64,000 nt of DNA from Rhodoferax sp. U2-2l (lineage in GTDB: Bacteria; Pseudomonadota; Gammaproteobacteria; Burkholderiales; Burkholderiaceae_C). A program made the translations under genes and the position numbers. Of the stretch, positions 53,361 to 59,060 are shown piece by piece. The notes under the pieces are model-generated. The model worked only from the letters and a program-made list of their open reading frames with translations. It did not search any database and was not told the DNA's origin. The number at the start of each line of letters is the position of its first letter. The first letter of the stretch is position 1. Where the stretch lies: NCBI RefSeq assembly GCF_020594515.1, contig NZ_JAJCTH010000019.1, positions 1-64,000 of the forward strand, read 5' to 3'.

Positions 53361-53396
53361 GGTCCCCATTGTAGAAACGCAGTTGGAGCTTCTGAA

Positions 53397-54047
53397 TTGA
53401 AAATTCTGGTCGTGGACGATCATGCACTGGTGCGTGCCGGGCTGTGCCAGGTGCTGCAAGGGCTGGCTGCGGACGAAGTCACCGAGGTCATTGAAGCCCC
53501 GGACTGCGCGCGTGCCTTTGAGCTGGCAGCCAGCCACCCCGACCTGGATCTGGTGTTGCTGGACTACCACCTGCCCGACATGAACGGTCTGGCCGCCTTG
53601 AGCATTTTTGGCGAGCGCCACCCGGAGCTGCCGGTGGTGATTCTGTCGGGCTCGGCCAACCCCAGCATCGCCCAGCGGGTGCTGGCCCAAGGGGCGGCCG
53701 GGTTTGTCACCAAATCGGGCCTGAGTGACGAACTCTTGCACGCGCTGCGTCAGGTGCTCAGTGGCGAGGTGTATTCACCCGCCGAGTTCCGGCCTGCGCC
53801 CAACACCGAATCAACGTCGTCCGACATCAAGGCGCCTGTTTTCACGCCGCGTCAGCTGGAAGTGTTGCAACTGCTGCTGGGTGGCTGCAGCAACCGCGAC
53901 ATCAGCGAACAGTTGTCGCTGTCGGATGAAACCGTCAAAAACCACGTCAGCAGCATCTTGCGGGGTTTTGGTGTCAAAACCCGTACCCAGGCCGCCCTGG
54001 AGGCCGGGCGCTGGGGTTATGACAAGGCAGCGCCCGTCGGACGCTGA
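53397..54047 (+). CDS. Response regulator, NarL/LuxR type
   Basis: The 216-residue regulator has a receiver domain (1-120: acidic D7-D8, phospho-acceptor D56 in LLDYHLPDMNG, conserved T/S in ILSGSANP, K in VTKSGL) and a LuxR helix-turn-helix (about 145-205: FTPRQLEVLQLLLGGCSNRD, ISEQLSLSDETVKNHV). The start is TTG at 53397 with GGAG 8 bases upstream; the frame is open far upstream but inside dnaE. It converges on the hybrid kinase gene and overlaps its 3' end by 31 bp, so the kinase is its likely partner. The target genes are probably the receptor operon at 54-59 kb. Confidence 0.88.
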   Translation: MKILVVDDHALVRAGLCQVLQGLAADEVTEVIEAPDCARAFELAASHPDLDLVLLDYHLPDMNGLAALSIFGERHPELPVVILSGSANPSIAQRVLAQGAAGFVTKSGLSDELLHALRQVLSGEVYSPAEFRPAPNTESTSSDIKAPVFTPRQLEVLQLLLGGCSNRDISEQLSLSDETVKNHVSSILRGFGVKTRTQAALEAGRWGYDKAAPVGR

Positions 54048-55978
54048 CCCGGCGGCGCCATCAGCAGATGCCGCAACAGGCTGCGCAACTTGGCCGGGCG
54101 CACGGGCTTGTGTAACAAGGTGAGTCCGGCAGCCTGCACCGCCTGGATCACCGCCGGATCGGTGTCACCACTCATCAGGCAGGCCGGCGTGGTCTGACCC
54201 AACTGCTGCCGTAACTGCTGCACCAGTTGCAGGCCGGTGAGACCGTCCTGTAACCGGTAGTCGCTCACAATCACATCGGGCAACTCGCCCTGTGCCAGGC
54301 ACTGCAGGGCCGCGACCGGGCCATGGGCCGTTGCCACCCGCATGCCCCAACTCTCCAGTAATCCGGCCAGGGCGCTGCATGCCAGGGTGTCGTCCTCGAC
54401 CACCAGGGCCGATCGGCCTGCCAGATCATCGGGCGCCGCCTTGTCCCTGGCCATGTCGTCCGCCAGAAACGGTTGGCTGGCCACCCAGGGCAGGCTCAGC
54501 GTGAAACGGGTTCCACGCCCCGGTTGGGACGCCAGCGTCAGCGAATGCGACAGCAAATTGACCGTGCGCTGCACGATGTTGAGCCCCAGCCCCAGGCCTT
54601 TGGTGCGGTCACGCGCCGCATTGCCCACCTGGTAAAACTCGGCAAACACCGCTTGCTGGTGCTCCGGCGCGATGCCGATGCCGCTGTCCCACACCTGCAA
54701 CACCACCTGCCCCGAACCGCGCCGACGCGCCGCCACCAGCACACCACCCCGTTCGGTGTAACGCAGCGCATTGCCCACCAGATTGAGCAACACCCGGTAG
54801 ATGAGCGTGGCGTCACTCATCACCCACAGATCGGTGGGGCGCAGGCGCAGGCGCAGGCCTTTCTCAGCCGCTTCGGCGCTCAGGTCCTGCTGCAATTGGT
54901 CAAACAGGGTGGCCAAGGCAAAAGGTCGCTTGTTCACCTGCACGGCGCGGGCCTCCAGGCGGGAAATGTCCAGCAAGCCGTCCAGCAGGTTCTGCATGGC
55001 GCGCACCGAGGCCTCCAGGTTACCGATCAGCGCACCGGTCTGGGCGTCATGCGGCAGCTGTGCCAGGCGCGAGACAAACAGCCCCAGGGCATGGGTGGGC
55101 TGGCGCAGGTCGTGGCTGGCCGCCGCCAGAAAGCGCGATTTGGCCAGATTGGCCTGCTCGGCTTCGTCTTTTTTCTCACGCAATGCCTGCGTGGCCAGCG
55201 CCACCTGCTGCTCCAACTCGCCGCGCGCCTGCGCCAGCCGGTCCGCCATCAGGTGAATATGCCCCTGCAACACCTGCAGCGGATCATGGTCGGTGTCACG
55301 GTCGCGCAACTGGTCCGCCGCCGCAAAATCGCCCCGGCCAATGCGCTCCACCAAGCGGGTGATGCGGTTGATCGGGCGGATCACCCCGCGGCTCAAAAAC
55401 ACGGCCAATGCCATGCCAAAAAGCAGCCCCACACCACCAATCACACCGCCGGTGATCAGCATCCGGGTCTTGCGCGCATCCACACTCTGGCGTGAGAACA
55501 CCATCACCACCTGGCCCAGCTGGTTGGGTTGCCGGTCTGCCTCGACCGCGTTTTTTTCAAACAGGTCATCGAGCTGGACTTCACTGGGGTACACCGGTTG
55601 CACCAGCCAGTCCAACCCCGCCTGCCGGATAAACCCCTGCTGTTCTGAGGCACTCATGGCCGGCGTTGGCACGGGCCCGGCCTCACCTGCGCTGGCCAGG
55701 GTCTGACCCCGGCTGTTCATCACCACCACCCGGCGCACATCGGCCTCATGCAGGGCACCCGCCGCCAAGGCCTGCAGTTGTTGGCCGTTGCCGGCAAACA
55801 GGCCGTACTCGCTGGCCAACGCCATTTGTCGCACCACCGAGCGGTTGTGCTGCTCATACGACGTCTGCAAATCGTCAAAACGCACCGTCAGAAAAGCGGC
55901 CGCCAGCAGGGTGGTGATCAAGGTCAGCGGCAGCAAGGCGGCCAGCAACATGCGGGTACGTATATCCAGTGTTTTCAT
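54017..55978 (-). CDS. Hybrid sensor histidine kinase with receiver domain
   Basis: The 653-residue membrane kinase has a first membrane helix (about 10-30), a periplasmic domain of about 140 residues, a second helix (about 173-195) and a HAMP linker (RPINRITRLVERIGRGDF). The HisKA domain has H289 in AAASHDLRQPTHAL. The ATPase domain has NALRYTERGG, VWDSGIGIAPEHQ and GLGLGLNIV. A C-terminal receiver has D573 in VIVSDYRLQDG. There is no transfer (HPt) domain. The start overlaps the binding-protein stop by 4 bp (ATGA), which strongly suggests the binding protein feeds its periplasmic sensor domain. The PTHALGLF kinase type resembles other kinases paired with NarL-type regulators. Confidence 0.93.
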   Translation of the reverse strand: MKTLDIRTRMLLAALLPLTLITTLLAAAFLTVRFDDLQTSYEQHNRSVVRQMALASEYGLFAGNGQQLQALAAGALHEADVRRVVVMNSRGQTLASAGEAGPVPTPAMSASEQQGFIRQAGLDWLVQPVYPSEVQLDDLFEKNAVEADRQPNQLGQVVMVFSRQSVDARKTRMLITGGVIGGVGLLFGMALAVFLSRGVIRPINRITRLVERIGRGDFAAADQLRDRDTDHDPLQVLQGHIHLMADRLAQARGELEQQVALATQALREKKDEAEQANLAKSRFLAAASHDLRQPTHALGLFVSRLAQLPHDAQTGALIGNLEASVRAMQNLLDGLLDISRLEARAVQVNKRPFALATLFDQLQQDLSAEAAEKGLRLRLRPTDLWVMSDATLIYRVLLNLVGNALRYTERGGVLVAARRRGSGQVVLQVWDSGIGIAPEHQQAVFAEFYQVGNAARDRTKGLGLGLNIVQRTVNLLSHSLTLASQPGRGTRFTLSLPWVASQPFLADDMARDKAAPDDLAGRSALVVEDDTLACSALAGLLESWGMRVATAHGPVAALQCLAQGELPDVIVSDYRLQDGLTGLQLVQQLRQQLGQTTPACLMSGDTDPAVIQAVQAAGLTLLHKPVRPAKLRSLLRHLLMAPPGQRPTGAALS

Positions 55979-56934
55979 GGCAGGCGCTCCTGACGCCGCA
56001 AGGCCTGGCGCAACACGTCCACATCGAACGACCAGCCCAGGGACCGTGCCACCTGGGTGTTCACACCAACCTCGAAATCATTGGGCTCCATCGCCCGATC
56101 TGGCAGCGGTCTGCCGCGCAAGATGCCCAGCACCACCTCAGCCGCCTGTTGGCCCGCCTGCACCGGCGTGGTGTACAGCGCCAGCAGCGCACCGGCGCGT
56201 ACATAAGCCGGGGAAAACGCCACCATCGGCACACGGGCGCGAAAGCTGGAGAGCAAAATATTCTGGATGGTGCTGCTGTTGAACACCAGCGGGTCAGCCA
56301 GGGCCAGCAACACATCACTCTGGGCCAGCAACTGCGGCAGGCTTGCGGCCAAATCGTCTAGGTTGTTCACGGTCACGTCCTGCAGACTCATCTCATGGGC
56401 CGCCGCCACAACGCGCAAGTTGGCCGCAAAGGCAGACGATTCCGGACCCAATACCACCGCCAGGCGCCTGGCCTGCGGCAGCGCCAGGCGAACCAGCGCC
56501 AGCTGACGGGCCAGCGGCTGGTCCAGATAAATGGCGCTCACCAGGGCTGACCCGGCCTTGCCGCTGCTGCGCAGGAGGCGCTCAAAACTGCGGCGCGGAA
56601 TCAGCGCGCTCACCACCGGCGACTTCACAGGGCCGGCCAGCAGAACCCGCGTGGCTTCACTGCCCAGCGCCACACACACCGCCGGGCACAGAGGCAAGCC
56701 CGACTGCTGGCGCAAAACCAGTTCGGAGGCAAAAACCTGCGAAATATCCGAACGCGCCACGCCCTGGCGCACCAGCGTGTCGACCACCGCCTGCGCCGCC
56801 TGGGCATAGGCCACCGCGGTGTCGCTGCTGACAATGACCACCCGCACGGAAGGCCCAGAACCCTGCGCGCGCGCCACGCCGCCAGTCAGGCCCAAGGCCC
56901 AACACAGCAACAGGAGGCGCAGCGCACGGGTCAT
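55975..56934 (-). CDS. Periplasmic substrate-binding protein (ABC_sub_bind-like)
   Basis: The 319-residue protein has a Sec signal peptide (MTRALRLLLLCWALGLTGG, cleavage after ARA at about residue 23) and a two-lobe fold of the ABC_sub_bind (TrpX/YtrF-like) type: VRVVIVSSDTAVAY, VALGSEATRVLLAGPVKSPV, RRLAVVLGPESSAFAANL and MVAFSPAYVRAGALLALYTT. No permease or ATPase gene is nearby. It lies 8 bp after the TonB-dependent receptor and overlaps the hybrid kinase, so it is more likely a sensory binding protein than part of an importer. The ligand is unknown. Confidence 0.85.
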   Translation of the reverse strand: MTRALRLLLLCWALGLTGGVARAQGSGPSVRVVIVSSDTAVAYAQAAQAVVDTLVRQGVARSDISQVFASELVLRQQSGLPLCPAVCVALGSEATRVLLAGPVKSPVVSALIPRRSFERLLRSSGKAGSALVSAIYLDQPLARQLALVRLALPQARRLAVVLGPESSAFAANLRVVAAAHEMSLQDVTVNNLDDLAASLPQLLAQSDVLLALADPLVFNSSTIQNILLSSFRARVPMVAFSPAYVRAGALLALYTTPVQAGQQAAEVVLGILRGRPLPDRAMEPNDFEVGVNTQVARSLGWSFDVDVLRQALRRQERLP

Positions 56935-56942
56935 GGGCAGGG

Positions 56943-58955
56943 TCAGTCTTCCAGACGCAGGGTGATGAAGGCCTGCTTTTGAAACAGGTGCTCGCGCTTG
57001 AAATCTGCGTAGGCCGAGCCCAGGTTCTGCACCACCAGCGCCAGTTCACCGCGGCGTGCGCCCCAGCGCATGGCTTTGGCCAGGCGCAGGTCGGTCCGGG
57101 TGCGCGCTTGCGGGCGGTCGGCCACCAGACCCATCGCGCTGTTCTCGGAATGCAACAGCGTCAGGTCCAGCTGACCCGGCAATTGCTGGAAATAGGCCAG
57201 TGAGCTGGCGCGCCTGGGTGTGGCGGCGTTGATTTCGTCATCCCCCGGCGCAAAGTGCGAGTTGTCGATCCATGTCTGGTTGAAGATGATCTGCGCGCCT
57301 TGCCATGGCTGCCATTTGACCTGGTATTCGGCGCCTTGCAGGTCAAAGGCCGGGTTGTTGGCGTAGTCTTTGCCGATCCGCCCGCTGCGAATGTCGATCA
57401 GCTTGTCAAACCGCTCCTGAAACAGCCGCACATCCACCGCGACGCCCCAGGCAGAGAAATCGCCCAAATAACCCACTTCTTTGGCCAACAGCGTTTCGGG
57501 CACGGTCTGGCCGGTCGCCTGGGTGTCCACCTGCACACCCAGCAAGGGAACATCAAATTGCCGGTCGGCAAACTTTTCATAGGTGCTGGGCGGCCGGAAC
57601 GCCTTGGACACGCCCGCACGCAGCGTGTGGCCAGGCGCCAGGTGCCAATTCATCATCAGACGCGGTGCCAGAGTGTTGCCGGTGACGCTGCTTTTTTCGG
57701 CCAGGGCACCCGCATTGAGCAGCCAATCGGGCGCCAGCCGCCACTCCAGATTGCCAAACAGGCGCAAGAACTCGGTGTCAAAGGCTGCACTGGTGTTGTA
57801 CAGCGGCGCCGAGACAATCCGTTCGCTTCGGTATTCGCCACCCAGCACACTGCGCAGTGTGTTGCTGTGGCGCTGGGTGTACTGCACCGACACCGCGTTG
57901 CTGCTGGCACGGCCGTCGGCATTGACGCTATAAAAATCACTTGGGGTGAACGCCTGAAAACACGCCGCTTTATAGGGGTCCTTCAAACCTGGGCAGAGGT
58001 TGAGCAGACCAACCGGAAACTCTTCCCGGTAACGCTCCTGGCTACGCGACAGCTTGAACGCCACATCTTCTTCGCTACTCAGCGCCAGCTTGTAATCCAG
58101 TTGGGCGTAGGCCGAATCAAAACCAAAGGGCCGTTGCGGGTCAAGCGCCCAATTGGGCTGACCGCGACCCGCATCCAGGTTCAGGGCCCCCAGTCGCAGC
58201 TGCACCTCGTGACCAGGCGCCGGGTACAGGTCTGAGCGGAAGTTCACCCGGCTCACCGAATTGCGGTCATAAGCGCCTTCCAGACCCTCATCGGCCCGGC
58301 GGTCAACACTCAGCCTGAAGCTGCCAGAGCCAACGCCCCAGCCCACGCTGGCCAGCGCGTCATGGATGCCGTTTTCGCCAGTGGTGACCGCCCCCCGCGC
58401 ACCCAGAGAGTCAGCGGTGTGGCGCGTCACGATGTTGATCACCCCCAAAAAGGCGCGGGCGCCATAAGCCGCCGAGTTGGAGCCGCGCAACACCTCGATG
58501 CGCTCAATGTCGTCCAGCGCGACCGTCTGCAGGCCCGGCGCAATGCTCCCAATGAAAAACGGCGAGTATGCCGAGCGACCATCCACGAGCAACTCCACCC
58601 GGTTGGAATAGCGCCCGAAGATGCCGTGGTAACCCACCTGCGGCGCCACACTTTCAAACGCATTGCTGACCCGAAACCCCGGCACCAGCCGCATCAGATC
58701 GGCCACGTCGCGCGCGCCGGAGCGGCGGATCATGTCGCGGTCCAGGATCGTCACCGCACCGGGCGTTTCGTCGAGGCGCTGCGGCAGGCGCGACACGCTC
58801 AGCACAATCGGCATGTCGCTCAGGAAATCGTTTTCAGACACCGACGTGACATCCTGTGCCAGGGCCGGGGCGAGGGCCAGCAGCCCCCCCGCTGTGAGGA
58901 CGGCTGCATACAAGAGAGCTCTCGCCCTGGCAAGGGCGGGTGAAGTGGGCCACAT
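56943..58955 (-). CDS. TonB-dependent outer-membrane receptor
   Basis: The 670-residue protein has a signal peptide (cleaved after ALA, residue 33), a TonB-box-like segment (MPIVLSVSRLPQRLDETPGA), a plug domain (to about 180: IRRSGARDVADLMRLVPGF, YHGIFGRYSNRVELLVDGRS, EVLRGSNSAAYGARAFLGV, INIVTRH) and a 22-strand-type barrel ending in LFQKQAFITLRLED. It resembles BtuB/colicin-I-type receptors but has no N-terminal signalling (STN) domain. The start at 58955 gives the signal peptide; the longer frame to 59057 does not. It opens the receptor, binding-protein and kinase operon. The ligand is unknown. Confidence 0.9.
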   Translation of the reverse strand: MWPTSPALARARALLYAAVLTAGGLLALAPALAQDVTSVSENDFLSDMPIVLSVSRLPQRLDETPGAVTILDRDMIRRSGARDVADLMRLVPGFRVSNAFESVAPQVGYHGIFGRYSNRVELLVDGRSAYSPFFIGSIAPGLQTVALDDIERIEVLRGSNSAAYGARAFLGVINIVTRHTADSLGARGAVTTGENGIHDALASVGWGVGSGSFRLSVDRRADEGLEGAYDRNSVSRVNFRSDLYPAPGHEVQLRLGALNLDAGRGQPNWALDPQRPFGFDSAYAQLDYKLALSSEEDVAFKLSRSQERYREEFPVGLLNLCPGLKDPYKAACFQAFTPSDFYSVNADGRASSNAVSVQYTQRHSNTLRSVLGGEYRSERIVSAPLYNTSAAFDTEFLRLFGNLEWRLAPDWLLNAGALAEKSSVTGNTLAPRLMMNWHLAPGHTLRAGVSKAFRPPSTYEKFADRQFDVPLLGVQVDTQATGQTVPETLLAKEVGYLGDFSAWGVAVDVRLFQERFDKLIDIRSGRIGKDYANNPAFDLQGAEYQVKWQPWQGAQIIFNQTWIDNSHFAPGDDEINAATPRRASSLAYFQQLPGQLDLTLLHSENSAMGLVADRPQARTRTDLRLAKAMRWGARRGELALVVQNLGSAYADFKREHLFQKQAFITLRLED

Positions 58956-59006
58956 GGCGTTCCAATCGTTCTGGTTGTTTTCCCAGATTTTGCCCTGCGC
59001 CACCCC

Positions 59007-59045
59007 CTGCCAACTGACACACGTCACAGAAGGAACAGTTGTCAG
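59007..59045. promoter_or_regulatory. Inverted repeat upstream of the receptor operon
   Basis: CTGCCAACTG (59007-59016) and CAGTTGTCAG (59036-59045) are inverted copies with one mismatch and a 19-bp spacer. A smaller dyad, TGAC-ACAC-GTCA (59015-59026), overlaps its left arm. They lie 51-90 bp upstream of the receptor start in the 105-bp gap after pirin. A NarL-type regulator could bind here. Confidence 0.4.
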
Positions 59046-59060
59046 CTCACAGGCCACTCT

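Follow-up and report, generated by a model that had tools for sequence, protein, structure and literature searches.

A predicted trans-envelope sensory module joining a TonB-dependent receptor, an ABC_sub_bind protein and an sCache_4 sensor in Rhodoferax sp. U2-2l

Why should the gene for a periplasmic ABC_sub_bind protein lie between those of a TonB-dependent receptor and a sensor kinase? The question is raised by a four-gene locus of Rhodoferax sp. U2-2l (53397-58955 of the window, the 64,000-nucleotide stretch of contig NZ_JAJCTH010000019.1 that was analyzed), in which the genes for a TonB-dependent receptor, a substrate-binding protein (SBP) and a hybrid sensor kinase follow one another on the minus strand and meet a convergent gene for a NarL-type response regulator on the plus strand. 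Gene coordinates were taken from the sequence and its open reading frames, and domains were assigned by Pfam. The receptor and SBP genes are separated by 8 bp (56935-56942), the SBP and kinase genes overlap by 4 bp (55975-55978, ATGA) and the kinase and regulator genes overlap convergently by 31 bp (54017-54047); the gene order and spacings given in the preliminary description are exact to the base. That description had also reported the lack of ABC permease, ATPase, sigma factor and anti-sigma genes, which holds: open reading frames and Pfam reveal no permease or ATPase adjoining the four genes, no sigma/anti-sigma pair adjoins them (the flanking genes tested by Pfam encode a pirin and a LysR regulator), and the signaling genes of the module itself encode a histidine kinase and a response regulator. 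The locus is quite probably a member of a widespread, ligand-gated sensory module that spans the cell envelope, in which the SBP serves signaling.

The TonB-dependent receptor (56943..58955, minus strand; 670 aa) has a signal peptide, a plug and a barrel (Pfam, 78 bits for Plug and 79 bits for the barrel), and Pfam reports no further domain and no STN signaling domain. About 12 residues separate its likely mature N-terminus from the TonB box and plug, and there is therefore no room for a FecA-type signaling domain, in agreement with the earlier statement that the receptor lacks one. Identity with a FecA/FecIR system is rejected, given a receptor without an STN domain and a locus without sigma or anti-sigma genes. 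The FecA-FecR-FecI system resembles the module in that a TonB receptor is genetically tied to an inner-membrane signaling protein, but the module has no STN domain, anti-sigma or sigma gene and has a binding protein as its periplasmic link. Systems of the PfeA-PfeRS type also combine genes for a TonB receptor, a kinase and a regulator, as the module does; the kinase of the module differs in being a hybrid with an sCache_4 domain, and we know of no SBP in PfeA-PfeRS-type systems. Upstream of the receptor gene lies a probable operon promoter region (58956..59060, minus strand) with a block, GGCAAAATC, that appears to be conserved in close relatives in an alignment read by eye. In this upstream alignment a CAAAAT-like block is conserved and a CATCTG-type repeat weakly visible, too little to name a regulator-binding operator.

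The SBP (55975..56934, minus strand; 319 aa), predicted to be the ligand-presenting subunit, belongs to the ABC_sub_bind family (PF04392; 66.8 bits, over the Pfam cut-off of 25.9) and is the only PF04392 gene in the 4.2-Mb genome. Its AF2 model (pLDDT 95) is a complete two-lobed type-I periplasmic binding protein (PBP), closest in fold to CD0873 (Z 26.2, rmsd 3.0, 275 aligned); other close folds are 3lkv and the TrpX-like, L-Trp-bound 3lft, and the matches include the LuxP/LuxQ complex (2hj9) and XylFII-LytSN (5xsd). TrpXYZ-type ABC transporters share this family and fold, but the module lacks their permease and ATPase and its SBPs differ in conserved residues. Beside the 30 best PF04392 matches among transport SBPs, a TrpY-like permease is found in all 30 cases, an ATPase in 29, and a sensor or TonB receptor in none. 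The TrpY-like permease is absent from all 205 module-survey loci, a collection partly selected by sensor; the fair set for counting sensors is the 85 loci selected by SBP. In an alignment of the two groups, module SBPs share Y43, G91, LDQP (137-140), R143, S241, A247, P257 and Q259, whereas transport SBPs carry D241, R247 and other residues. LDQP, R143, S241 and A247 are diagnostic for the module proteins.

The hybrid kinase (54017..55978, minus strand; 653 aa) comprises a transmembrane segment, an sCache_4 domain, a second transmembrane segment, a HAMP domain (below the Pfam threshold), HisKA, HATPase_c and a receiver, with no Hpt domain detected. Its 140-residue periplasmic domain, to which the preliminary description had given no family, is a recognized sCache_4 domain of the BarA/GacS type (PF09984; 55469..55882, minus strand; 34.7 bits, Pfam cut-off 22.1). 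It is the only PF09984 match in the genome, and thus two families that are each present in single copy are encoded by neighboring genes. The sCache_4 profile matches the solved periplasmic domain 5o7j, which we take to be that of GacS, a relation at the level of sequence; the model of the input domain (pLDDT 91) gives weak matches to extracellular Cache-type domains, such as those of WalK/YycG and DctB. The C-terminal part of the kinase is NahK/ErcS-like (NF041832; 340.3 bits, below the curated cut-off of 400), and the match to the BarA model PRK11107 (212.6 bits) is likewise below its curated cut-off of 890.

The receptor/SBP/sensor set is found again in many other beta- and gammaproteobacteria, and the gene order of the locus is not due to chance, since it is found in well over 100 loci. 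Among the 85 SBP-selected loci, an sCache_4/HAMP-type sensor is directly adjacent in 84, where this and the following adjacency counts take in related genomes and the domain models behind them were built from these same loci, with HAMP included in the 'sensor' model. The sensor is adjacent in all 45 loci found by SBP sequence in a species-genome collection, and in 39 of 40 loci fetched from a class-wide search (the exception being L364) in which 113 of 369 genomes matched the module-SBP profile; the class (Gammaproteobacteria) and the order surveyed next are named after record titles and GTDB usage. When Burkholderiales are approached from the sensor side, sCache_4 is present in 79 of 399 genomes, and a comparison of two lists places PF04392 in 78 of these 79 as against 181 of the 399 overall. 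The SBP gene is adjacent and on the same strand in 87 of 105 sCache_4 regions from this order, with a TonB receptor in the SBP operon in 57 regions and nearby in 10 more. Of the 18 regions without an adjacent SBP, most hold kinases, often next to the gene of a LuxR-type regulator; the others hold three GGDEF-EAL proteins or lie at contig ends. Further genomes, including a phylum-level sample, show the order unchanged in the short flanks that were read, and a search of a plasmid collection gave no match. The preliminary description had named rare neighborhood of the four genes in relatives as refuting its reading; co-occurrence is conserved, but the unit is not one of four genes. The pairing of SBP and sensor is widely conserved among beta- and gammaproteobacteria, whereas 137 of 175 modules have a TonB receptor within 3 kb and the regulator is confined to a minority of the kinase versions. 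The invariant core is the SBP together with the sCache_4 sensor, which the TonB receptor frequently accompanies. No description of the receptor/SBP/sensor combination was found in the open-access literature (subscription papers and preprints lay outside the scope of the search), and the module, which is real and conserved, is apparently undescribed as such.

About one-fifth of modules have no TonB receptor nearby (e.g. the Thiobacillus-type loci L047-L052), and receptor-based delivery of a ligand is therefore not essential everywhere. Loci L047-L052, L054, L056, L061, L063 and L076, which derive mostly from Thiobacillus/Hydrogenophilales, pair an SBP with an sCache_4-GGDEF-EAL protein in this receptor-free form. 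The nearby receptor is sometimes convergent, as in Azonexus types, and two loci (L158, L188) have a tandem pair of receptor genes upstream of SBP and sensor. In L015 and L251 the receptor and SBP share one frame of 982 aa (L251:3-2948); this apparent fusion is likely a frame artefact, as the SBP retains its own signal peptide and the last strand of the receptor is garbled.

The output of the sensor varies. Among 175 distinct modules, 81 end in a histidine kinase, 62 in GGDEF-EAL and 27 in GGDEF, with five mixed or unresolved; Pfam confirmed sCache_4 in all representative sensors tested but that of L008. Two module sensors (L242, L246) carry a kinase, several receivers and GGDEF-EAL in a single protein. 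The SBP tree requires at least 17 switches between kinase and c-di-GMP outputs. SBP distance correlates with sensor-input distance at r 0.85-0.90, with GGDEF distance at 0.75 and with kinase-core distance at 0.52, values that are inflated by shared ancestry through the species tree and are informative in their order. Such closer tracking of the input domain than of the output domains would be expected of an SBP that makes up the working unit together with the input domain. Across 175 SBP-sensor pairs, mutual information between the two proteins exceeds that of shuffles, but is equal in strength between and within the proteins, has one hub column and is confounded by phylogeny.

The regulator (53397..54047, plus strand) is of the NarL/FixJ type (Response_reg and GerE in Pfam), has a TTG start and converges on the kinase gene. 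Of 81 kinase modules, 24 have a NarL/LuxR-type regulator within 3 kb, as against none of 89 c-di-GMP modules (p=2e-9), and the regulator is therefore best seen as an accessory output arm that belongs to the kinase versions only; in 16 related kinase modules it is convergent and adjacent, as at the present locus. The gene is divergent from dnaE, with about 34 bp between the likely starts (window 53363-53397), and its promoter therefore probably overlaps the dnaE leader.

These elements suggest a route for the signal. The TonB receptor, to judge by its family, would concentrate a scarce ligand into the periplasm, where the SBP, having left transport, would bind it and dock on the inner-membrane sensor at its sCache_4 domain, as the conserved pairing and co-divergence of the two suggest. 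Docking would set the HAMP-linked output, which here is a histidine kinase with a receiver; the kinase would then act via the convergent NarL-type regulator, through a presumed phosphotransfer and on presumed target genes, among which the preliminary description had counted the operon itself. In relatives, whose domain content is directly observed, the same input would instead drive GGDEF or GGDEF-EAL c-di-GMP enzymes. By analogy, the module may work like a variant of SBP-dependent, LuxPQ-like sensing that has been joined to a TonB receptor. As in LuxP-LuxQ, TorT-TorS and XylFII-LytS, the proposed target of a type-I PBP is the periplasmic domain of the sensor encoded next to it, and LuxPQ-like systems share with the module the conserved placement of an SBP gene beside that of a membrane sensor that has such a domain. 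The module differs from all three in its SBP family (PF04392), its single sCache_4 input, its linked TonB receptor and its GGDEF/EAL outputs. The GGDEF-EAL versions may be likened to NspS-MbaA of Vibrio, a binding protein with a GGDEF-EAL sensor; to our knowledge, that binding protein is of a different family and has no TonB receptor.

Alternatively, the sCache_4 domain might bind the ligand itself, with the SBP only buffering or scavenging the compound or passing it to an ABC permease encoded elsewhere; the genes would then cluster through a shared ligand. Cache domains commonly bind small molecules directly, and 23 matches to PF02653 (BPD_transp_2), a family of permeases, occur in the genome and might supply such a transporter. 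However, the best of its TrpY-type matches is only 25% identical, so that no close relative of the permease is present (a cognate permease elsewhere in the genome was what the preliminary description had named as counting against its reading), and TrpY-type permeases are missing from every module-survey locus. Moreover, the SBP has been kept through the output switches, whereas those sCache_4 kinases of the survey that resemble GacS/BarA do without one. Direct sensing by the Cache domain is thus unlikely, and the SBP is best read as signaling rather than transport machinery.

The other alternative concerns the receptor, whose best NCBIfam match is the TOL_0244 family (NF053590; 177.6 bits, below the curated cut-off of 645). 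Proteomic work has linked TonB receptors of this family (TOL_0244/OmpS) to alkane uptake (PMC6304351). These receptors are the best-scoring NCBIfam relatives of the module receptors and similarly have genes for a periplasmic protein and for a HAMP sensor of variable output as neighbors, but differ in their partners, which in the loci read are YfiR-like, and in the CHASE8 domain of the sensor. A second receptor/periplasmic-protein/sensor arrangement is seen in L281-L305 (e.g. L282:1375-4798, L284:133-3700, L285:3-3708): in those that were read, the gene of a TOL_0244-family receptor precedes one of YfiR/HmsC type (PF13689) and one for a CHASE8-HAMP sensor with HisKA, chemoreceptor-like or GGDEF output. 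The SBP could instead be a mechanical adaptor, with ligand binding by the receptor or TonB-driven movement of its plug passed by contact to the SBP and then to the sensor, much as FecA signals to FecR and with no free ligand in the periplasm. The parallel arrangement counts toward this account, since YfiR is a regulator of its sensor and is not known as a solute receptor, as does the presence of a TonB receptor in the operon or nearby in most modules. Against it, the receptor has no N-terminal domain of FecA-type transducers, the SBP retains the full two-lobed type-I PBP fold, and some modules have no receptor nearby. Transmission by contact alone is accordingly improbable, and delivery of a ligand to the sensor by the SBP is preferred.

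The chances seem about even that both arrangements belong to a general, unnamed class of envelope-spanning receptors, composed of a TonB receptor, a periplasmic mediator (ABC_sub_bind or YfiR-like) and a HAMP sensor, with outputs exchanged freely among histidine kinases, chemoreceptors and c-di-GMP enzymes. If the proposed function is true, the module would let many environmental beta- and gammaproteobacteria detect compounds that are scarce outside the cell, through both membranes and with no need of an ECF sigma factor. It would also account for many genes that are at present annotated as orphan 'ABC transporter substrate-binding proteins'. The diagnostic residues tell module SBPs from real transport proteins and would allow such annotations to be corrected. 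Because its outputs can be exchanged, the module lends itself to testing and to the construction of sensors in laboratory strains. One locus (L367; G645:C153) links the SBP/sCache_4 and TOL_0244/YfiR-like arrangements: the gene of a TonB receptor that exceeds the TOL_0244 cut-off precedes there a gene with a receiver domain, one for an ABC_sub_bind SBP and a truncated one with sCache_4.
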